From Ruania rhizosphaerae (lineage in GTDB: Bacteria > Actinomycetota > Actinomycetes > Actinomycetales > Beutenbergiaceae): a DNA stretch of 64,000 nt. Location: positions 1 through 64,000 of the forward strand of contig NZ_VSMB01000014.1 in the NCBI RefSeq assembly GCF_009805705.1, read 5' to 3'. The stretch's first letter is position 1; the number at the start of each line of letters is the position of its first letter. The notes beneath the pieces are model-generated. The model was not told the DNA's origin and made no database searches. It saw only the letters and a list, made by a program, of their open reading frames with translations. Positions 3,737 to 48,154 of this stretch are shown in pieces. The position numbers were made by a program, and so were the translations under genes.

Positions 3737-3900
3737 CCTGTACGAACCGATCCGAGACGACGAGAGATGACGCGCACGAGGCGAAGGAGACGATGATGCG
3801 ACGCAGGCTGATCCACTGGCGGAGGCAGGTGGCTGCACGCTTGTACGAAGCCCCGGAGCGGGGCGATGTGCCCGGCTGGGTTTTGGTAACTCTCATGACT
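3733..3900 (+). pseudogene. Small pilin-like tad gene, 5' part split by prophage
   Basis: The first 56 codons of a short actinobacterial tad-locus protein, ending in GDVPGWVLVTLMT where the hydrophobic helix begins. After ACT at 3898-3900 the frame enters prophage DNA and reads nonsense to a stop at 3948. Joined to 47697-47786 it gives an 85-residue protein with one helix (GWVLVTLMTAGLVVLIWALAG), the right size and position for a Flp-like pilin or a small pilin partner. The true start may be MMRRRLIHWRRQ at 3793. Confidence 0.85.
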
Positions 3901-3923
3901 AGTGCCTCATCTCACCCGGGTGG
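3892..3923. other. attL: attL: core CTCATGACT plus phage arm
   Basis: The host half (pilin-like gene codons) ends and the phage half begins here. The phage arm CTCACCCGGG at 3911-3920 is the exact reverse complement of CCCGGGTGAG at 47661-47670. When the ends are joined, the two arms lie 18-27 bases on either side of the dinucleotide CT (3892-3893 = 47688-47689), as expected for a serine-integrase attP. Confidence 0.85.
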
Positions 3924-3944: not shown

Positions 3945-4355
3945 ATGATGGTGGCCATGCCGAGGGTGTGTGCTGTGATCGGGTGCGAGAGCCCCGTGAA
4001 GAACCGCAGCCTGTGCTCGTTGCACTACTCCCGCACCCTGTACGGGCGCCCGCTGTTGGGTCCGTCGCTGATGCGCGAGGGAGCGTGCCGTATGTGCGGG
4101 GCCACGTGGTGTGTCCTGCCCGGCAAGCGGCAGCCGAAACTGTGCGGGTCCAAGACGTGTCTGCGGTTAGCGATGATCGCTGAGGCGCGGGTGCGTACGC
4201 GGGAGCGTGACGAGCGGATCGTCGAGCTCATGCGGGCCGGCTGGAAGGTGGATGCGGTGGCCGAGGAGGTGGGGTCGACGCCGTCGACGGTCAGCCGGAT
4301 CGCACGGCAGTCAGGGTTGCGGCGGTACCCGTACGCTCCACGTCGCCGGCACTGA
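3945..4355 (+). CDS. Zinc-finger and HTH protein at prophage left end
   Basis: 136 residues (or 132 from the ATG at 3957). The N-terminal half has two cysteine clusters (CAVIGC..C..H and CRMCGATWC....CGSKTC) that could bind two zinc ions. The C-terminal half is a helix-turn-helix (RIVELMRAGWKVDAVAEEVGS followed by STVSRIARQSGL), similar to HTH_38/Hin-type DNA-binding segments. It is the only rightward gene near attL and faces the converging lytic operon. It could be a transcription factor or a lysogeny-expressed regulator; no catalytic recombinase domain is present. Confidence 0.65.
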   Translation: MMVAMPRVCAVIGCESPVKNRSLCSLHYSRTLYGRPLLGPSLMREGACRMCGATWCVLPGKRQPKLCGSKTCLRLAMIAEARVRTRERDERIVELMRAGWKVDAVAEEVGSTPSTVSRIARQSGLRRYPYAPRRRH

Positions 4356-4975: not shown

Positions 4976-5386
4976 CTACTCCTCGAGCAGTTCTTCGGTC
5001 GCCGACTCCGGCAGGTAACCGATCAGCGTCCGGATGAGCGTCACGGCTGCAGTACCAGCGGCGGTGACGGCGATGTCGTGCCAGGCAGCGTCCTGGATCA
5101 GCGTCACCGATGCCACCCCGGCTGCGACAGTCTGACCCAGGGTGCGTGCCACCCGGTACACCGCTGCCTTCCACGCCGGCACCTGGGTGCCGGTGAGTTC
5201 GGGCATTCGGAACAGTGCGGTGGCGAACGACGCGACAGCGACGGCACCGAGGAGGCCGCCGGCGTAGGCGAGCTCCACGTTGCCGGTGCCGATCTGCGAC
5301 GCCAGCGGGATGAGCGCGGCGAGGACGGTGTACAGGACGCGCCACCCGGTGGCCTTCCACCAGGCGCCGGTGAACAACGGAGTCAT
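4976..5386 (-). CDS. Putative holin (r1t-like)
   Basis: 136 residues from ATG at 5386 (MTPLFTGAWWKATGWRVLYT). It has two or three hydrophobic segments: residues ~14-32 (VLYTVLAALIPLASQIG), ~38-55 (LAYAGGLLGAVAVASFAT) and a helix near 85-95, and an acidic C-terminus ESATEELLEE. This layout matches actinophage r1t-type holins, which permeabilise the membrane so the amidase can reach the wall. It follows the endolysin gene with a 41-base gap. An in-frame start at 5431 would add 15 polar residues and is less likely. Confidence 0.8.
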   Translation of the reverse strand: MTPLFTGAWWKATGWRVLYTVLAALIPLASQIGTGNVELAYAGGLLGAVAVASFATALFRMPELTGTQVPAWKAAVYRVARTLGQTVAAGVASVTLIQDAAWHDIAVTAAGTAAVTLIRTLIGYLPESATEELLEE

Positions 5387-5427
5387 AAGGATTCCCTTCT
5401 GTGTGCGCGCGTGGCGCGGGGTTGGCT

Positions 5428-6414
5428 TCATAGGTACTTGCGCTGCTGGTTGAGGTAGGACTGCAGCGCCTTCACGCTCATCGGTCCGAGCCAGCCGTCG
5501 ATCCGGCCGGAGTACAGGCCCTTGGAGCGCAGGAACGACTGCAGCGCCTTGCGGGTCATCGGGCCGCGGATGCCGTCAATGCGGCCCTTGTAGAACCCGA
5601 GGTCGCGCAGCCACTCCTGCTCAGCCCTGATGGACAGGGACCCGAAGTCGCCGTCAATGTCGCCGTGGTAGTAGTCCACCTCGGGGGCGTCCAGGAGGAT
5701 CTGGTACGCCGTGGCGGTGACCGGACCGAAGTCGCCGTCGCGGCGGAGCTTGGCGTACTTACGGCTCTTGCGCGGGGTCTTCTTGCCTGATCCGGTGACC
5801 GGCGCAGGCTTCTGCTTCGGCGGCCTCTTGACCGGCACGCCCTCGATGTAGTCCTGCGCCAGGTCGAAGATCTCGTCCAGCTGGTCGATGAACGCATCGG
5901 TTGGGCAGGTCTTGCCGAAGACGGTCGACCAACGCTGCCCGGTCTGATACCCGGACCAAGTCTTCCGGTTGGCCTTGTCGAACGCGCCGAAGTTGCCCTT
6001 GCAGCCGAGGCGGTGCCAGGCCAGACCGGTCGTGTCGTTGTAGCTGGCGATCCGGTTCGGCACCCCATGTTCGGTGACCAGGTGTGCGAATGCTCGGGCG
6101 TCGTTGTCGATCTGGTTGCCGCTCATCCGGTCGCCCGGGCGGCCCTGGTGCTCGACAGCGAAGGTCTTGCCGTTGCCGTCGAGGTCGGCATAGGCCTTGC
6201 GGTGGATCTCCTGGTGCTGCCGCATTGCCTCGTCCAACGGGTTGTACGCGTGGGCGTACGTCCTCCCTGGACCTTTGCCGGGACCGTAGATGTCGTCGGC
6301 GTCGGTGACGGCCATGTGCACCGTCATCCGCACCGGCCGGTTGGACAGCAGGGACCGCTTACTGATCGGGTCCCAGACGGCGCCGGGTAGGCGCCCCTTC
6401 TTGAGCGTGACCAT
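5428..6414 (-). CDS. Endolysin: N-acetylmuramoyl-L-alanine amidase with C-terminal binding repeats
   Basis: 328 residues. The N-terminal 190 residues are an Amidase_2-type domain; H33 (VHMAVT), E88 (FAVEHQG), H134 (LAWHRLG) and C170 (GKTCPTD) fit the zinc-ligand and catalytic positions. After a Lys/Pro linker (about 195-220) come peptidoglycan-binding-like repeats (RRDGDFGPVT, DIDGDFGSLS, RIDGIRGPMT, RIDGWLGPMS). The enzyme should cleave the muramoyl-alanine bond in the host wall. It has no signal peptide, so release depends on the adjacent holin. Confidence 0.9.
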   Translation of the reverse strand: MVTLKKGRLPGAVWDPISKRSLLSNRPVRMTVHMAVTDADDIYGPGKGPGRTYAHAYNPLDEAMRQHQEIHRKAYADLDGNGKTFAVEHQGRPGDRMSGNQIDNDARAFAHLVTEHGVPNRIASYNDTTGLAWHRLGCKGNFGAFDKANRKTWSGYQTGQRWSTVFGKTCPTDAFIDQLDEIFDLAQDYIEGVPVKRPPKQKPAPVTGSGKKTPRKSRKYAKLRRDGDFGPVTATAYQILLDAPEVDYYHGDIDGDFGSLSIRAEQEWLRDLGFYKGRIDGIRGPMTRKALQSFLRSKGLYSGRIDGWLGPMSVKALQSYLNQQRKYL

Positions 6415-6479: not shown

Positions 6480-6812
6480 TCAGGCGCCCTGGGGGCGCGC
6501 GGGCGGCGGGGGTTCTCTTCGTGCCCAGATGTGCGCCTCCAGGACGTCGATATGGTCACCTTGGGCGCGGATGAGGACAGCGTCGGCGCGGCGGGCCGTC
6601 CAGAGTCGGTCGATCTCGCCCTGCATGCTCGCCTGCCTGGTCTCGCTGTCACGCAGGCGGGTCTGCAGGATCTCGACGTGCTGCATGATCGCTGAGGCGC
6701 GGTCGCGTTTCGTCTCACGGCTGTGGACCAGGGCGGCGCCGACGATGACGCCGACCACTCCGATAGCGGCGGCGACGATGGTTGCGATCGCCGCAGGGGG
6801 TAGGGCGGTCAT
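6480..6812 (-). CDS. Membrane-anchored coiled-coil protein (lysis region)
   Basis: 110 residues with one N-terminal TM helix (IATIVAAAIGVVGVIVGAALV, first 20 residues shown in part) followed by a charged coiled coil (REHE.. IMQHVEILQTRLRDSETRQ) and a Pro-rich tail. One TM plus coiled coil is typical of phage spanin-like or second-holin proteins of actinophages, next to the lysin. Its start codon region (6782-6812) is antisense to the spurious upstream part of the silent fibre cassette. Confidence 0.6.
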   Translation of the reverse strand: MTALPPAAIATIVAAAIGVVGVIVGAALVHSRETKRDRASAIMQHVEILQTRLRDSETRQASMQGEIDRLWTARRADAVLIRAQGDHIDVLEAHIWARREPPPPARPQGA

Positions 6813-6840
6813 ACGACTCCTCGGAGGTCGGGGCCGATAG

Positions 6841-6865
6841 GTGGATTTACGTCAACGGGGACTGG
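6841..6865 (+). repeat. Inverted repeat, left copy, of invertible tail-fibre segment
   Basis: 25-bp sequence starting GTGGATTTAC and ending GGGGACTGG. It is the reverse complement of 7705-7729 with a single mismatch (C/T, synonymous Asp codon). It encodes WIYVNGDW in frame with the silent cassette that follows. Confidence 0.9.
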
Positions 6866-7288
6866 AGGGCGCAGAACGCCACCGCCGTGGCTGCCCGTCG
6901 AGAGGGAGGAACGGGCACCGTTTCGATCCCGGAGGGCGGTCCGCACACCATCAGCGCCGGCACGGTGCAATACATGCACGGCGGCATCACGGCCGGGGCC
7001 AACGGCTTCTATGTCCCAGTCGACGGCATCTACATGGTCTCTGGCAGCATCCGTCTCGACCTGACCCCACCCCACGAGTTCCAGCTCCGGATCGTGGTGG
7101 GCGGAGTGGGCACGGTCATCGATCAGAGCGGATGGGAAACCCGGTACCTCGCAACCGCCACGACAGTTCAGATCGCTGCCGGACAGGACATCTTCCTACA
7201 GGTCTGGAACAACGGCACTGATCCAGTCGACATGCTGGACGGGATCGGTGCTCCGCATCTGGCCGTAGCGCTCATCGCGCGGACGTGA
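6842..7288 (+). CDS. Silent alternative C-terminal cassette of the tail fibre
   Basis: 148 codons beginning WIYVNGDWRAQNATAV and ending at TGA 7288. It is predicted to fold as beta structure (repeated short strands such as GFYVPVDGIYMVSGSIRLDL, cut here at 20). It has no ribosome-binding site or plausible start; the open frame upstream (6782-6841) is only antisense to the neighbouring gene. The first eight residues equal residues 70-77 of the fibre gene on the other strand, and inversion between the two repeats would fuse this cassette in frame to that gene's N-terminus. It is thus a stored second receptor-binding tip. Confidence 0.85.
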   Translation, partial: WIYVNGDWRAQNATAVAARREGGTGTVSIPEGGPHTISAGTVQYMHGGITAGANGFYVPVDGIYMVSGSIRLDLTPPHEFQLRIVVGGVGTVIDQSGWETRYLATATTVQIAAGQDIFLQVWNNGTDPVDMLDGIGAPHLAVALIART

Positions 7289-7323
7289 CGCCTCAGTGAC
7301 TCAGGGACACATCGGGTGACGGG

Positions 7324-7935
7324 TCACGCCTCCCAAACCGCTACCCAACGCGAGGTCGCGCCACTGGACGTGGCATCGACCTGATATCGGAGCGCGACCG
7401 ACCCCGACGTCGTGACGTTCACGTGAGAGAAGTTCGATCCCGCCGACCCGGAACCGAACGAGATCTCCTTCGGGATCGGCATACCTACTGCAAGAGAGCC
7501 GAGGGCCACATTCTGGGCTCCGGACGTGATCGCGACGCCCGTTTGCTGCCAGGTCATGGTGACCATCGACGTGCCCGCTTCTGGGTCGGTATCGATGACA
7601 GCGGAGGCGTAGACCAGGGACCACCCGGATTCGACGGCGATGACGTCGGTGCCGGTTAGTCGCTCGCGGCGGAGGCGAGAGTCTCCTGCCTCGTAGGCCC
7701 GCACCCAATCCCCGTTGACGTAAATCCACTTAACGGCGCTCGACCCGGACCCGGTGAACGCTTCCATGCCCTCGACGGGGGAGGGGATCTCGGCCTCCAG
7801 GGCGGGCACGTCGGCGAAGCGCATGTTCAGTCGCCCGGCCGCCCACGTGACGATCGCGCTCATCTGGTTGGGACCGTCAGGCGGATCCGGGGGAGTCGGG
7901 TACGGGCCCTGCTGGACTGGCTCATTTGCGGGCAT
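7324..7935 (-). CDS. Tail fibre / receptor-binding protein, currently expressed version
   Basis: 203 residues, ATG at 7935 with AGGAGG six bases upstream. Residues 1-77 form the constant part (Pro-rich start, then FADVPALEAEIPSPVEG, ending WIYVNGDW). Residues 78-203 are the variable tip (RLTGTDVIAVESGW, VTMTWQQTGVAI, SGSVALRYQVDATSSG), strand-rich with short repeats as in C1q/TNF-like trimeric tips. It sits at the end of the tail operon before the lysis genes. The 25-bp repeat at 7705-7729 divides constant from variable parts, so inversion of 6841-7729 would replace the last 126 residues with the 140 stored on the plus strand. Confidence 0.8.
   Translation of the reverse strand: MPANEPVQQGPYPTPPDPPDGPNQMSAIVTWAAGRLNMRFADVPALEAEIPSPVEGMEAFTGSGSSAVKWIYVNGDWVRAYEAGDSRLRRERLTGTDVIAVESGWSLVYASAVIDTDPEAGTSMVTMTWQQTGVAITSGAQNVALGSLAVGMPIPKEISFGSGSAGSNFSHVNVTTSGSVALRYQVDATSSGATSRWVAVWEA
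7705..7729 (-). repeat. Inverted repeat, right copy, inside expressed tail fibre
   Basis: Reverse complement of 6841-6865 with one synonymous mismatch. It codes for WIYVNGDW at residues 70-77 of the expressed fibre, marking the crossover point for inversion. Confidence 0.9.
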
Positions 7936-7999: not shown

Positions 8000-8863
8000 T
8001 CAGACTTCGGGCGGTGGGGTGTAGGTGAGTACCAGGGAAATCGCGAAACTGGCGGTCTCGTCGATGTCGTCGGTGTATAGCGCCAACCCGGTAGCGGCCC
8101 CTGAGATCAGGTCGTCCTGGAGTGCCTGCGGGATCGGCCATGTGGCCTGCTCGCCGTCACCGGCGCCCCACTCGGATGCGGCGGCCAACTGCCCGGGCAA
8201 CCAGGGCCCGTGCGTGAGTGTCGGGGCGACGTTGTCAGCTGGCGGCGCTGCCTGTGTGTAGGAGTGACCCCACAGCACAGGGGAGACGAGCTGCTTGCGT
8301 GGCTGGTACGGGCCGTAGTCGCCGGCGCGGTCGACCCGCTTGACGCGAGCTAAGAGGCGCACGCCTGTCGCGCCGCCAGGGATCCGGTCGGGCAGGTCCT
8401 CCCAGGTGATCATGGTCGCCCACACGATGATCGGCGCCACGAAGTCGGGCGGCTCATCCCCGCCCTGGCGAGGGTCGGTGCCCTGCGTGGCCCACTCGAT
8501 TCCATCCGGGTAGAAGAGGGTGGGGGACCACGTGCCGTCGTTGTCCTCGTCGGACATCTCCCAAGCGACCTCGTCAGTGGACGGCAGCGCCCGGGTCACG
8601 GGCTCCGGCTCGTCCACCTGGACAGTGGAGATAGTTCCGGTCACGAGTAGTCCATGAGTCCTGTCCCAGTGGACCGTGACGACGTCTTCGACGACGGGGG
8701 AGTAGGCGGATGCCTGCCATGGCACCCCGGAGACGGTCTCGCCACCGAGATCCAGGGTGAGCGTCCCCGTAGGGGCGTCAACCTCGAGGACGGTGCCGAG
8801 TCGCCACCCCGAGGTCGTCATGCGGGCGAGCATGTTCGCTGTGGACTGCCCGAGCGATGTCAT
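8000..8863 (-). CDS. Minor tail protein
   Basis: 287 residues from ATG at 8863 (MTSLGQSTANMLARMTTSGW), overlapping the upstream gene stop. An N-terminal region (GTVLEVDAPTGTLTLDLGGE, GVPWQASAYSPVVEDVV) resembles the small OB-like domain of phage tail proteins, and the C-terminus contains Tyr/Pro-rich strands (LYTDDIDETASFAISLVLTY). It lies between the DUF5047-like protein and the fibre, so it is probably part of the tail tip. No exact family assigned. Confidence 0.7.
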   Translation of the reverse strand: MTSLGQSTANMLARMTTSGWRLGTVLEVDAPTGTLTLDLGGETVSGVPWQASAYSPVVEDVVTVHWDRTHGLLVTGTISTVQVDEPEPVTRALPSTDEVAWEMSDEDNDGTWSPTLFYPDGIEWATQGTDPRQGGDEPPDFVAPIIVWATMITWEDLPDRIPGGATGVRLLARVKRVDRAGDYGPYQPRKQLVSPVLWGHSYTQAAPPADNVAPTLTHGPWLPGQLAAASEWGAGDGEQATWPIPQALQDDLISGAATGLALYTDDIDETASFAISLVLTYTPPPEV

Positions 8864-10617
8864 GCGACCACCTGCCGGATGTCGCGAGTGCTCATCTGGA
8901 AACGGCCCCCTGCTGCGAGATCGAAAGTGATGGAGTCGACGACGTGCCGGCGGATCGTGTTCGCGTCGGTCGGGTCGGTCCACAGGTCGATCACGTCGAG
9001 CGCCTCCAAAGCGACGTTCGGCACCGCGCCGATGTCCACCGAGGACGCGGCACCGGTGGAGCGCGCGAGCTCGGCCGCCGCGGCACGTCGTGCCTGTGTC
9101 ACGGTTGTGATCGTTGGGATCGCCTGGAACTTCGTCACGTGCCCATAAGCACCGGTCGATGGTGCGCCGTAGCGAGTGGGCGAGGACGAGTCGGTGTCCG
9201 TCGCGATCGCGGACACCGGGGGAGCGCCAGAGGAAGGGTTCTCCCCGCGCGTTACCACCCGGTTGTAGACGCGCTCACGACTGGAGGATTGATCCGCGGA
9301 GACAAGCACGCCCGCGTGGTCGACCGTGTAGTACTCGATCACGTCGCGGGTGTCGCCGTCGAAGAATGGTCCCGCCACCGTGGAGGCGTACGCCATGGTG
9401 AAATCCAGCTCCACCGCGTCCGGCAGTGTCGAGGAGACCAGGCCGACCGTCGCGCGCGCAGAATCGAACTCGCTTGCGACTTCCACCGTCCCGGCCACTT
9501 CGGCCCACTCGCCCGCCGTCAGCGGGATCGGGGATAGGTCGGTGCTGGCCACAGTGGAGAACCCGTCCCGGGCGGACACCCGGGCCCAGTCCATCGTCAC
9601 GTCCGCAGTGGAGCGCGCCCACAGCGACATGTGCACGGCGGTGTTGGAGCCAGCCATCGGGACACTGACCTGCGCGTACCGCTGTCCAGATCCGTCTCCG
9701 ACCAGCCGCAACAGCCCGATACCGCCATCAGGGCCAGGCTCGTCTACTGCGACCGGGCCACCGAACGTTCCCCATGGGCCTAGATCCTCACCTTCGCGCG
9801 GACGTGGGACCGTGACATGGTTGGTGCGGGTCACCACGTCCAGCGTGGTCTCGATGGAAGTCGACTCCCCAGTGGTGCCGGTCCAGTCGTAGGTGGTGAC
9901 AGTGCGTTGCTCCTGGGTCGAGTACTCCGACGCGATCCGCCACACCGGTGGCGAATCCAGCGTCGGAGCGTCACGGATCACAAACCGACCTGCAGCGTCC
10001 GCATAGACGACAGCTCCGATGCCCTTAGCGATCTGAGTGATGGCATCCCACCGGTCCTCATCGAACGTCGTCCGCCGCACGCGCGCGTCCTGCGTCGCAG
10101 ATGGGATCACCACGAACGCCGGGTCGGTCTCCTGGATCAGGTCAGTGATCAACTGCTGCGCCGACGAGGACGAGACGGTACGAGGATTGGAGAAGCGGTC
10201 GTCCGCGATCCACGCCTCACGTGAGACACCCTTGATCTGCACGCCCGACTGGTCCAGCAGCGACCCGTCCACGTCATCAATGCGGTACATCCCGCACGGA
10301 ACCCACTCCACGACACCGTTCGGATACACCAGGCCGTGGCGGAGCGTGATCTCCTGTCCGTAGTGACCCAGCGGCGCATCCCACGACTCGGGCAGCGCCG
10401 GCCGGTCACCATAGACACCCTCACGCAACCGTGGAGCGATGATCAGTGTGCACTCACGTCGCGTGATCCGGTGCGCAGCCACCGACACCCGAGAGCCCTG
10501 CGTTTCCACCGGCAGATCCGAGTACAGCCGGACGCCGCCCTTGTTCACGTCAGCGCGGATGACCACCTCATGCGGGGACTGGATCGCCTCCAGGTAGGGG
10601 CTTGTGACGGGCCACAT
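8860..10617 (-). CDS. Minor tail protein, DUF5047-like, with inserted carbohydrate-binding-like domain
   Basis: 585 residues from ATG at 10617 (MWPVTSPYLEAIQSPHEVVI). Residues 1-275 and about 430-585 look like the DUF5047 phage tail family, including ALEALDVIDLWTDP and FQMSTRDIRQVV near the end. Between them, residues ~279-425 form a separate beta-rich block (GLLRLVGDGSGQRYAQ, VHMSLWARSTADVT, GEWAEVAGTVEVASE) like a carbohydrate-binding module. The insert suggests that this baseplate protein touches a surface glycan. It overlaps both neighbours by a few bases. Confidence 0.75.
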   Translation of the reverse strand: MWPVTSPYLEAIQSPHEVVIRADVNKGGVRLYSDLPVETQGSRVSVAAHRITRRECTLIIAPRLREGVYGDRPALPESWDAPLGHYGQEITLRHGLVYPNGVVEWVPCGMYRIDDVDGSLLDQSGVQIKGVSREAWIADDRFSNPRTVSSSSAQQLITDLIQETDPAFVVIPSATQDARVRRTTFDEDRWDAITQIAKGIGAVVYADAAGRFVIRDAPTLDSPPVWRIASEYSTQEQRTVTTYDWTGTTGESTSIETTLDVVTRTNHVTVPRPREGEDLGPWGTFGGPVAVDEPGPDGGIGLLRLVGDGSGQRYAQVSVPMAGSNTAVHMSLWARSTADVTMDWARVSARDGFSTVASTDLSPIPLTAGEWAEVAGTVEVASEFDSARATVGLVSSTLPDAVELDFTMAYASTVAGPFFDGDTRDVIEYYTVDHAGVLVSADQSSSRERVYNRVVTRGENPSSGAPPVSAIATDTDSSSPTRYGAPSTGAYGHVTKFQAIPTITTVTQARRAAAAELARSTGAASSVDIGAVPNVALEALDVIDLWTDPTDANTIRRHVVDSITFDLAAGGRFQMSTRDIRQVVA

Positions 10618-11435
10618 CACGCCCCCTGGAGTAGGTCGAACCAGGTCGGGTTGGCGTCGATGACGTCCTGCCAGGTGGCGTACTGATCCATCACGCCCTG
10701 CCAGGTGGTCCCGGTCGAGCGGACACCCAGCCCGGCGGGCATGTCGGTGGCGACGAGGGAGAGGGCATAGTTCCGGCCGTCGTAGTGGGCGTAGCTCATC
10801 TGCGCCGGGTTCGCCCGCGACCACCCGGTGACCAGGTACCAACCTGGTGTCAGCTCCGGCTCGGCGGCCGCGTCCTGGATCAGCACCACCCGCGCGCGCT
10901 GGAGCAGCCCCTCCAGTGCGCGGGCAGCACCTGCACCCTTCGTGCCGACGATGATCGGCGCCTGGAGAGTGTCTGATCCCGCCCACTGTGCGATCGCCTT
11001 GGGTCGGGCGGCCGGGTCGGACTGGTGGATCTGGTAGGCGCCGCCCCGAGTCGCCGAGGACACGTCCCCGATCCCTCGGAAAATGACGTTCTGCGTGAGG
11101 TCCGGCTTCCCAGGTGCCTTGATGAAGAAGTCACATGGTGGGGCGCCCACGGTCGAGACGCTCTGCGACTCCTGTGCAACTGGGTCGCCGAACTCGTTGA
11201 ACCCGTACACGGTGTACTGGACGTTGGTGTTGATTGGCATCTCATGGTCAGTGCCGATCCAGTACCCACCAGCCACCCACAGGTCCTCCACGCCCCGCAC
11301 CGGGATGACCGGGTAGCCGGCCGACTGGCGTTCGATCCGGATCTGCGACACCGCAGACGGCCACATGCCGCCATCGACCACGATCCGCACCGCAGCCCAC
11401 GCCGGGTCGTAGGTGGCTTCAAGGATGGGCATCAT
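10617..11435 (-). CDS. Distal tail / minor tail protein
   Basis: 272 residues beginning MMPILEATYDPAWAAVRIVV. It lies immediately after the tape measure gene, the usual place of the distal tail protein in actinophages. Visible features are an FNIII-like segment (YTVYGFNEFGDPVAQESQSV) and a C-terminus with repeated TWQGVMDQYATWQDVIDANP (20 residues shown). TGATG overlap links it to the next gene. Confidence 0.7.
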   Translation of the reverse strand: MMPILEATYDPAWAAVRIVVDGGMWPSAVSQIRIERQSAGYPVIPVRGVEDLWVAGGYWIGTDHEMPINTNVQYTVYGFNEFGDPVAQESQSVSTVGAPPCDFFIKAPGKPDLTQNVIFRGIGDVSSATRGGAYQIHQSDPAARPKAIAQWAGSDTLQAPIIVGTKGAGAARALEGLLQRARVVLIQDAAAEPELTPGWYLVTGWSRANPAQMSYAHYDGRNYALSLVATDMPAGLGVRSTGTTWQGVMDQYATWQDVIDANPTWFDLLQGA

Positions 11436-45263: not shown

Positions 45264-45496
45264 CCACTCAGGCCGTCGACCTCCCGGACACCGACCGCGC
45301 GATCCTCGACCTCGAAGCACGGTTCTGGAAGTACGCCGGCGCCAAGGAGACCGCGATCCGCGAACAACTCGACCTGTCCGCCACCCGCTACTACCAGCGC
45401 CTCAACCACCTCATCGCCACACCGGCCGCCAACGCGTACGCCCCCATCGTCGTGAACCGACTGCGACGGGCCCTTGCCAAGCCGCGGCGGTCATGA
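45260..45496 (+). CDS. DUF3263-like small protein
   Basis: 78 residues. TDRAILDLEARFWKYAGAKE and AIREQLDLSATRYYQRLNHL are typical of DUF3263, a short HTH-like actinobacterial family. Its stop overlaps the integrase start (ATGA). It may be a recombination directionality factor or regulator on position alone. Confidence 0.72.
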   Translation: MTTQAVDLPDTDRAILDLEARFWKYAGAKETAIREQLDLSATRYYQRLNHLIATPAANAYAPIVVNRLRRALAKPRRS

Positions 45497-46962
45497 TGCC
45501 CCCGAACCAGAAGCGACACCTACAACCCGCACCCGAACGACCCCTCCGCGCCGTCCTCTACCTCCGCCAATCCACCCACCGCGAGGAATCCATCAGCCTC
45601 GAAGTCCAGGAAGCCTCCGGCCGCGACCACGCAGAACGCCACGGCTACCAGGTCGTCGCCGTCGAAGCCGACCCCGGTATCACCGGCCGCACCTGGAAAC
45701 GCCCCGCCGTGCAACGCGTCATGAACATGATCGAAGCCGGTGACGCTGACGTCGTGATCCTGTGGAAGTGGTCGCGCCTGTCCCGGTCACGGCGTGACTG
45801 GGCGGTCGCCGTTGACCTCGTCGAGCAAGCCGGCGGCCGTATCGAATCCGCCACCGAACCGATCGACGTCGCCACCAGCTCGGGCAGGTTCGCCCGCGGT
45901 GTCATGGCCGAGCTCGCCGCCTTCGAATCCGAACGCATCGGTGACACGTGGAAGGAAGCCCACGCCCGCCGCGTCGCGCAGGGGCGACCCGCGAATGGGA
46001 AGCCCCGGTGGGGGTACGCCTACGACCCGGAGGAGAAGCTGCACAAGCCGGACCCGGAAACCGGGCCGGTGTTGGCGTCGCTGTACCGCCGCTATATCGC
46101 CGGTGAGTCGGTGTACGGGTTGGTGCGGTGGCTCAACAGCAACGGGTACGAAACGCTCCCCGGCTACTCCGCCTCCGGTGCTGGTCCCTGGTCTGATCGG
46201 TCGCTGCGGCGGGTACTGGACTCTGGGTTCGGTGCCGGTCTCATCAACGTCCGTGGCGAGCAACGTCCCGGCGCCCATGAAGCGGTGATCAGCATGGGGG
46301 AGTGGGACGCGTACCAGGTCGCCCGCCGAGAACGGCGCGTCGAGCGCACGACGGAACGGTCCCAATACCTCCTCTCGGGCATGGTCCGCTGCCAGTGCGG
46401 GTCGTCCATGAACGGGGGGCAGTTCGGTGGGGCACGGGAGCCGAAGTACCGGTGCAAGCAGGCGCATGCGCAGGACCGCCACCCTGGCGGGTACGCGTCC
46501 ATGCGTGTCGTCGAAGGTGCGGTGCTCGCCTGGTTGCGTGACCTCGCCGCCGACGTGGAAGCGGCGGGGGAGGCGTCTTCGTTGCAGCAGCGGTCAGCAC
46601 GCCGTCAGGAGTCCCTGGCCACCCGACTGACACGTGAGGTGGAGAGGGTGAATGCCCAGTTGCTGCGGGCCACCCGTGGCCACATCGCGGGCACGATCCC
46701 GGAGTCGATGTACGCGCAGATCCGCGACGAGCTCACGCAGCAGTTGGAGGGGTTGCAGGCGCGGCAGCAGGCGGCCGCTGTCGCATCGAGGCGGGCACCG
46801 GCGCCCGAGCTCGCACGTGACCTCCTGGCCGACTGGGAGGTCCTGTCGGTGGAGTTGCGGCGGGGTGCGTTGCGGCAGCTGATCGACCGGGTGGTGGTGA
46901 CGCCGGCGCGGCCGCGTTCTACGGTGAGGGTGGTGCCGGTCTGGGAGGGTGAGGACCGATGA
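45493..46962 (+). CDS. int: Large serine integrase of the prophage
   Basis: 489 residues. Catalytic domain with VLYLRQS (Ser near residue 27), WKWSRLSRSRRDW and AAFESERIGDTW; recombinase domain from ~170 (GKPRWGYAYDP); zinc ribbon MVRCQCGSSMNGG...YRCK near residue 300; then a coiled-coil region (EVERVNAQLLRATRGHIAGT). Lies just inside attR, 726 bases from the core. It should recombine the CT-centred attP and the attB inside the pilin-like gene. Confidence 0.93.
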   Translation: MMPPNQKRHLQPAPERPLRAVLYLRQSTHREESISLEVQEASGRDHAERHGYQVVAVEADPGITGRTWKRPAVQRVMNMIEAGDADVVILWKWSRLSRSRRDWAVAVDLVEQAGGRIESATEPIDVATSSGRFARGVMAELAAFESERIGDTWKEAHARRVAQGRPANGKPRWGYAYDPEEKLHKPDPETGPVLASLYRRYIAGESVYGLVRWLNSNGYETLPGYSASGAGPWSDRSLRRVLDSGFGAGLINVRGEQRPGAHEAVISMGEWDAYQVARRERRVERTTERSQYLLSGMVRCQCGSSMNGGQFGGAREPKYRCKQAHAQDRHPGGYASMRVVEGAVLAWLRDLAADVEAAGEASSLQQRSARRQESLATRLTREVERVNAQLLRATRGHIAGTIPESMYAQIRDELTQQLEGLQARQQAAAVASRRAPAPELARDLLADWEVLSVELRRGALRQLIDRVVVTPARPRSTVRVVPVWEGEDR

Positions 46963-47655: not shown

Positions 47656-47696
47656 TTCACCCCGGGTGAGCCCAGGTATCAGTCACCCTCATGACT
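47656..47696. other. attR: attR: phage arm and core CTCATGACT
   Basis: Phage arm CCCGGGTGAG at 47661-47670 and the core at 47688-47696; to the right the pilin-like gene resumes in frame. With attL it defines attP and attB. Confidence 0.85.
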
Positions 47697-47786
47697 GCAG
47701 GCCTCGTGGTCCTGATCTGGGCGCTTGCGGGCGAGGCACTCACCCAGGTGTTCGAGACGGCGATGGACCGCGTGCTGAGCCAGTGA
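47697..47786 (+). pseudogene. Small pilin-like tad gene, 3' part
   Basis: 29 codons and stop reading AGLVVLIWALAGEALTQVFE then TAMDRVLSQ. It is the exact continuation of the helix left at 3900 (LVTLMT). The stop overlaps the next gene start (GTGA), so native coupling to tadE is preserved on this side. Confidence 0.88.
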
Positions 47787-48154
47787 ACGACTCCGAGCGC
47801 GGCTCGGCGTTGGTCGACTTCCTGCTGGTCTCGGTATTGGTGACCGCCCTGGTCCTCGGCGTGATCCAGCTCGCGCTGACGCTCCATGTGCGCACGGTGC
47901 TGGTCGACGCCGCGGCTGAGGGGGCCCGGTACGCGGCCCTGCACGAGAGCGCCCTCGCCGCCGGACAGGACCGGACGGCCCAGTTGATCGGGATGACCCT
48001 GCCCGAGGACTATGCCTCCGACGTCAGCGCGGAGACCGGATCGATCGACGGAGTCGACCTGGTCGAGGTGCACGTTCGAGCGCCCATCCCCGTGCTGGGG
48101 TTGTTCGGCCCGTCGGGTGTGCTCACCGTGACCGGGCGGGCGGTGGCCGAATGA
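47783..48154 (+). CDS. tadE: TadE-like pilus assembly protein
   Basis: 123 residues from GTG at 47783. SERGSALVDFLLVSVLVTAL is the TadE signature with the hydrophobic helix and a Gly/Ser processing region, followed by VDAAAEGARYAALHESALAA. A pseudopilin of the tad system. Separated from tadA-C by the prophage, so the operon's promoter-distal genes lose their native promoter in the lysogen. Confidence 0.83.
   Translation: MNDSERGSALVDFLLVSVLVTALVLGVIQLALTLHVRTVLVDAAAEGARYAALHESALAAGQDRTAQLIGMTLPEDYASDVSAETGSIDGVDLVEVHVRAPIPVLGLFGPSGVLTVTGRAVAE

Follow-up and report, generated by a model that had tools for sequence, protein, structure and literature searches.

Known fibre switches and Xer-mediated inversion

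To our knowledge, the known fibre-inversion systems (Gin, Cin, Min and Rin) all bring their own invertase, and annotation looks for an invertase because they do. Some details of the Mu and P1 segments that serve for comparison here are general background. In the parts of the published accounts available to us, the Mu G and P1 C segments, with Gin and Cin, and the corresponding system of p15B, with Min, have inverted sites within a fibre gene, C-terminal parts on opposite strands and a constant N-terminal stem (PMC6109161, PMC8987985). The Rin shufflon of Bifidobacterium prophages, as far as the consulted portion of its description goes, inverts C-terminal receptor-binding variants in actinobacterial temperate phages, and a tyrosine recombinase is proposed to do so; Rin is encoded by the phage beside the variants, of which there are several, and has 11-bp rix sites (TTCCCTAACCC) (PMC6109161).

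Host Xer recombinases are known to act on other loci of a comparable build. In Acinetobacter plasmids, opposite XerC/D sites (pXerC/D, or pdif) with identical centres invert reversibly through host XerC/D and flank resistance modules, according to the sections of the source that could be consulted (PMC9947245). The mba locus of Ureaplasma, in what was accessible of its report, was inverted in a test host by a XerC-type enzyme, with short inverted repeats and a switch in surface-protein expression (PMC3599477). Filamentous phages use host XerC/D through a dif-like sequence in order to integrate, as stated in the extracts at hand (PMC3025954).

The locus described here lies in a 64,000-nucleotide stretch of DNA from Ruania rhizosphaerae, which is called the window below. 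As the preliminary description had proposed, it follows the logic of Mu G and P1 C, since in-silico inversion between its two opposite sites joins the same stem in frame to either tip. Unlike those segments, it has dif-like joints, two tips only and no adjoining serine invertase; in contrast to Rin, its sites are dif-like and 28 bp long. By enzyme, the locus fits neither Gin/Cin, as no serine invertase was found, nor Rin, as neither a phage enzyme nor a rix site was found. It resembles the pXerC/D pairs in the opposite orientation of its sites and their identical centres, but these sites lie inside phage coding sequence and their recombination would alter a protein. The mba locus differs in encoding a bacterial antigen rather than a phage protein and in having other sites, and the dif-integrating phages differ in their mode of integration, whereas the window prophage has its own serine integrase. 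No fibre switch worked by host XerC/XerD was found in the literature searched, which was judged from titles and abstract openings and left subscription papers mostly outside. The switch anatomy is of a known, Mu-G-like kind; what would be new is host XerC/XerD as its proposed agent.

The fibre gene and its prophage

The prophage is a temperate siphophage of about 44 kb between its presumed ends. Its fibre locus has tail genes on one side and the lysis region on the other, the latter with an endolysin-like gene (5428-6414) and a weakly holin-like one (4976-5431). A good ribosome-binding site precedes the fibre gene (CAGGAGGACCGC-ATG). The N-terminus of the fibre is homologous to fibres of the genomes or loci G006, G320, G218, L095 and L100, and its N-terminal 80 residues are common to the fibres of G006 (71%), G320 (48%) and G218 (38%). 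These three fibres part from that of the window downstream of the peptide WIYVNGDW, so that this hinge is the point at which tips differ in evolution. Gene order in the G218, G320 and G006 prophages is similar by their translations: a tail protein, a protein of ~270-290 aa, the fibre, a small protein and lysis-like genes. Coordinates of the main features are collected in Table 1.

Table 1. Features of the fibre locus and its prophage (positions in the window)
Feature	Position	Strand	Remarks
Small gene just outside the segment	6480..6812	-	Membrane-protein-like by reading; family matches weak only
dif-like site, stored side	6830..6857	+	XerC arm 6830-6840, centre 6841-6846 GTGGAT, XerD arm 6847-6857; rank 2
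Left inverted repeat	6841..6865	+	24/25 identical to right copy
Putative invertible segment	6841..7729	.	Inverted repeats at both bounds
Stored (silent) alternative tip, putative	6842..7288	+	Hinge + 140 codons, frame in phase with hinge
Spacer between the stop codons of the converging frames	7289..7323	.	35 bp
Expressed tail-fibre gene	7324..7935	-	203 aa: constant stem residues 1-69, hinge WIYVNGDW 70-77, 126-aa tip
Right inverted repeat, within fibre gene	7705..7729	-	24/25 identical to left copy
dif-like site, fibre side	7713..7740	-	XerC arm 7730-7740, centre 7724-7729 GTGGAT, XerD arm 7713-7723; rank 1
Gene preceding fibre gene	8000..8863	-	Neighbour conserved in G006, G218; no family match; presumed tail protein
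Siphovirus tail protein	8860..10836	-	DUF5047 / phrog_1887
Prophage large serine integrase	45493..46962	+	Resolvase + Recombinase + Zn-ribbon; not invertase-type

Several features of the surroundings are recorded in their own right. Within a tad (pilus) locus, the prophage apparently splits a Flp-pilin-like gene (window 3780-3922 and 47670-47790), and a presumed att core, CTCATGACT, lies at both prophage ends (3892-3900 and 47688-47696; seen by eye, the repeat script having given other short repeats). The pilin gene would be broken on lysogeny, which could amount to a superinfection block. Two paralogous tadA/cpaF-like ATPase genes, recognised by reading, lie in the regions 1-1400 of the window (L001) and of contig C12 of the same genome (G000:C12, L002). 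Both abut the end of an element at the same nucleotide-binding motif; the large serine integrases of the two elements are related, and both contigs begin within the integrase. Beside the presumed left att end, an HTH protein with Cys/His motifs is encoded at 3945-4355 (+); it matches HNH and resolvase-HTH only weakly. Similar motifs recur, again by reading, in a protein encoded close to the L100 lysis genes (8942-10033).

A probable stored tip on the opposite strand

The preliminary description held that two inverted repeats encode the same hinge peptide in the same codon phase, one within the fibre gene and one at the head of a frame without a start. Re-examination confirmed the positions of the repeats, the reading phase, the residue numbers and the codon counts. 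The sole mismatch between the copies, GAC/GAT, is synonymous; 21 nt are exactly identical, and identity is 30/33 when the repeats are extended outwards. From the left copy the frame runs to a stop at 7286-7288. It has no usable start, the single in-frame candidate after the preceding in-frame stop being TTG 6782, which has no ribosome-binding site. Inversion in silico exchanged the 126-residue tip for the one of 140 residues in frame and gave a fibre of 217 aa. GC content by codon position is coding-like in the stored frame (0.65/0.50/0.79; fibre, 0.62/0.56/0.80).

Within the 64 kb, the pair is the single inverted repeat of at least 17 nt with arms 150-4000 bp apart (14-nt exact seeds), and its longest exact run of 21 nt compares with at most 18 nt in 40 dinucleotide shuffles. 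Allowing up to 3 mismatches, no further copy was found in the genome (4.43 Mb). The codon-restricted pattern W[IVM]YxNGxW matched 66 stretches in IMG/VR and occurred twice only in the window prophage.

Homology says less about the stored tip itself. It gives a weak BclA_C match (E 1.4e-4, 22.2 bits, under the Pfam cut-off of 38) and a 20-residue similarity to the expressed tip of the genome G588 (E 0.12). Neither fibre nor stored tip has close relatives in phage records or IMG/VR except in the same prophage, and the fibre stem gave chance-level matches only against phage records at E up to 10. AlphaFold2 folds of both proteins from single sequences were unusable (mean pLDDT 43.8 and 34.1). IMG/VR contains copies of both the window prophage and the G588 prophage, and neither showed a second orientation; being identical to the two prophages where compared, they are uninformative on orientation. 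We hold with high confidence that the fibre locus contains a stored, switchable second tip, the inversion itself being unobserved. The first interpretation, an invertible fibre segment with a second tip in store, fits and is supported, again without observation of inversion or of an effect on host range.

Recurrence in other phages

A survey of 26 fibre loci, window included, was made by script; several of them had only 1.5 kb of flank, and cassettes could be missed there. Eight were also read gene by gene (L023, L024, L027, L095, L096, L100, L282 and L283, with L096 the same phage as L027). Fibre profile A2 found 11 of the 396 genomes of the order, that of the window included, and profile A3 found 9 of 221 genomes of one family. 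Two loci with weak tail-protein matches, L025 and L026, contained no fibre on reading and were left out. The cassette is present in three of the 26 loci (window, L100 and G588), and the other 23 have no hinge repeat.

L100 is the IMG/VR record 3300024051_000006 (43.6 kb, possibly a fragment), which was found by the fibre-stem profile. Its fibre gene (4998-5552, +) ends 8 bp ahead of the stop of the opposite frame. That stored frame opens with the hinge in inverted copy (24 nt, 88%; 16 nt exact) and is in frame with the stem after a simulated inversion; it is silent as it stands because an in-frame TAG directly precedes the hinge. The hinge repeat is not the longest in this locus, which has further GC-rich repeats of 16-18 nt, so the evidence in L100 consists of phase and position.

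The G588 prophage was found by the second profile search, in the 221 genomes of one family. Its fibre gene (locus L282, 9211-9861, -) and stored tip are framed by an exact 40-bp inverted repeat (L282 8804-9675). The copies are in phase and the frames convergent, with stops 20 bp apart (inversion was not simulated), and no in-frame start was found in the 150 nt before the stored hinge.

Two of the stored tips have expressed relatives. The L100 stored tip is similar to the expressed tip of L095 (25% over 134 aa, 36 bits, E 4e-8), and the G588 stored tip to that of G524 (31% over 124 aa, 42 bits, E 3e-10, the first residues being hinge); both are single-pair E-values. Judged by such comparisons, it is plausible that the stored frames represent real tips, with the window case supported least.

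Dif-like hinges without an adjoining stored cassette were seen in G218 (L023 6362-6389) and G524 (L283 5002-5029). Such hinges might receive tips in exchanges between phages.

Search for an invertase

The absence of a Gin/Hin-like invertase near the locus had been remarked upon at the outset, and none was found beside the window fibre gene or elsewhere in its genome. The window encodes two serine recombinases, at 324-761 and 45550-45987, both of the integrase type with Resolvase and Recombinase domains, as originally stated. A search of the whole genome, which the preliminary description had recommended, returned three PF00239 proteins, all with the Recombinase domain of large integrases and two of them cut by contig ends, and three PF00589 (tyrosine) proteins on contigs C3, C42 and C33, none on the window contig C5. 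The L100 record, which may be a fragment, contains no PF00239 protein and one tyrosine integrase, in two pieces of one frame (PF00589). The G588 genome encodes a serine recombinase of 222 aa and a weak second match on another contig; its prophage was not searched exhaustively. A phmmer search for recombinases near the G588 fibre gave no match and is uninformative because it also missed the known tyrosine integrase of L100.

The repeats were also compared with sites of known kinds. Their best internal dyads, 7/15 and 9/16 in the two copies, are not convincing (no family site model was used), and the Rin rix site TTCCCTAACCC occurs nowhere in the window, L100 or L282. The prophage integrase was rejected as the invertase, the presumed att core being unlike the hinge.

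Resemblance of the joints to dif

With up to 3 mismatches, the dif pattern of the order, CCGATAANNNACATTATGTCAAG, occurs in 358 of the 396 genomes, against 2 when read backwards. It agrees with the dif of Frankia alni, which the portion of the source available presents as suggested but unconfirmed by experiment (PMC3025954). The host's own canonical dif lies at G000:C3:32876. Host XerD scores above its NCBIfam cut-off (339.7; cut-off 329.6), XerC is identified by best match only (285.5, under the cut-off of 335.15) and the third PF00589 protein of the host is a weaker XerC-like match.

A dif matrix with an 11-6-11 bp layout was derived from 20 sites across the host's order and scored over the 22 arm positions only. 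The window joints rank 1 (14.0) and 2 (7.0) among 127,946 positions, the third scoring 2.6, and those of L100 rank 1 (14.1) and 2 (6.8) among 87,160, the third scoring 6.0. With a fixed background, one other position stands slightly above the stored copy of L100, which becomes third. The G588 joints rank 1 (-0.8) and 2 (-2.4) of 38,948, with low scores, in the 19.5 kb around the fibre. In their own 10-kb loci, G218 and G524 each have their one hinge at rank 1. The best matrix position lies away from the hinge in G006, G320, L095 and L099.

Within each phage the sites are opposite and their centres identical: GTGGAT twice in the window, CGGTGT twice in L100 and TGCTGT twice in G588. The segment encloses the XerD arms and leaves out the XerC arms, which differ between copies, and in the window exact identity sets in with the first base of the 6-bp centre. 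The arms are imperfect, with 16/22 positions of the stored-side site matching the general consensus. This layout of arms and centre is what XerC/XerD strand exchange would need, binding and recombination being inferred. Host XerC/XerD are a likely invertase because the repeats sit within dif-like XerC/XerD sites.

Controls on the dif resemblance

Matrices with permuted columns were run in 1000 trials, allowing 8 bases of slack at the sites and requiring all sites to stand above every other position. The number that passed was 0 in the window, 2 in L100, 1 in G588, 6 in G218 and 0 in G524, and none ever passed in the window and L100 jointly. The real matrix passes the strict test in 4/5 records, L100 being missed by one position. 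Among spacings of 2-10 bp, 6 bp is best at all 8 sites, tied with 9 at the G588 fibre; the sites had themselves been found with a spacing of 6.

Synonymous sequences, drawn 200,000 times with the peptide fixed and local codon usage, scored at least as high as the real one in 172 cases for the window fibre copy, 258 for the window stored copy, 919 for the L100 fibre copy and 177 for G218, against 64,656 for G588 and 35,595 for G524. Such rare draws support selection at the DNA level in the window and in the group of L100 and G218. They do not in G588 and G524, where dif-likeness is explained by the protein alone because synonymous draws often match it. L100 and G218 are related and do not count as independent, and the stored copies of L100 and G588 were left out of this test. 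In both hinge copies of the window the Ile codon is ATT, a rare one (27/494 Ile codons).

Other controls limit the resemblance. If the matrix also covers the six central bases, only fibre-side copies keep a place near the top, and neither the window nor L100 has its stored copy among the first five, because the phage centres differ from that of dif. A reversed matrix ranks the window copies fairly high, with 1 and 12 positions above them, and in the AT-richer relatives L106 and L107 single positions elsewhere than at the hinge reach scores of 6-7. The exact dif-like pattern matched at least 120 stretches in IMG/VR, and among those listed only the phage of L100 had an inverted partner, which indicates that chance dif-like sites seldom pair.

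Proposed mechanism and alternatives

Our preferred reading, which we consider reasonably likely, is an invertible two-tip tail-fibre locus worked by host XerC/XerD; that inversion occurs, that these enzymes are its agents and that receptor use changes are all inferred. The hinge codons lie within a dif-like XerC/XerD site, and a second such site in opposite orientation stands ahead of the silent tip frame. Strand exchange by host XerC and XerD within the identical 6-bp centres would flip the 0.86 kb in between, and the constant stem would be joined in frame to the other tip, so that a minority of virions may gain a different receptor specificity. A centre unlike that of dif would prevent recombination of a phage site with chromosomal dif, which is again an inference. 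Two points tell against the reading: XerC/XerD normally require FtsK at dif, and dif-like hinges are also found where no cassette adjoins.

The segment might instead be inverted by another site-specific recombinase, whether an unrecognised phage protein, the enzyme of another element or the phage integrase, its likeness to dif being incidental. Many prophage genes have no known function, the HTH/Cys-His gene sits by the presumed left att end, a small serine recombinase is encoded elsewhere in the G588 genome and the dif-likeness of G588 is accounted for by its protein sequence. Against this, the integrases of the window (serine) and L100 (tyrosine) differ, PF00239 and PF00589 searches find no second recombinase in either phage (L100 with the reservation made above), the Rin site is absent, and the rank, permutation and synonymous results would have to be coincidence. 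We regard such an enzyme as unlikely. Rare inversion by homologous recombination or strand annealing at the short repeats would need no dedicated site, and both the exact repeats of 21 nt (window) and 40 nt (G588) and the exonuclease-like and RuvC-like genes of the prophage are in keeping with it; it is nonetheless improbable, as the exact repeat of L100 is merely 16 nt long and neither the dif-like arms nor the start of identity at the first base of the centre would be explained.

It could also be that nothing switches at present and that an old rearrangement, now frozen, put a second tip on the other strand. We give this little credence: the stored frames are open and coding-like in three phages, the hinge copies are near identical (in the window down to the rare ATT) and phase is kept in all three, even if the second orientation remains unseen and 23/26 fibre loci, some of them with short flanks, have no hinge repeat. 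That the plus-strand frame is a separate gene with its own start is barely credible. The window frame is indeed open back to TTG 6782, but this codon, besides having no ribosome-binding site, lies inside the opposite-strand gene at 6480-6812; the L100 frame is closed just ahead of its hinge, and that of G588 has no start close upstream.

Implications

Inversion by host XerC/XerD, if generalised, describes a group of actinobacterial temperate siphophages without a fibre invertase of their own, which use the XerC/XerD of host dimer resolution and in which the hinge peptide is partly dictated by a site with a non-dif centre; we put the chances of this slightly above even. If it is true, receptor switching would be tied to a host cell-division enzyme that is likely present in every host. 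If XerC/XerD do act here, host-range switches may escape notice in phages that seemingly have no invertase, and could be sought through fibre genes that contain short dif-like pairs in inverted orientation. Receptor variation would then join the phage functions that are outsourced to Xer recombination.
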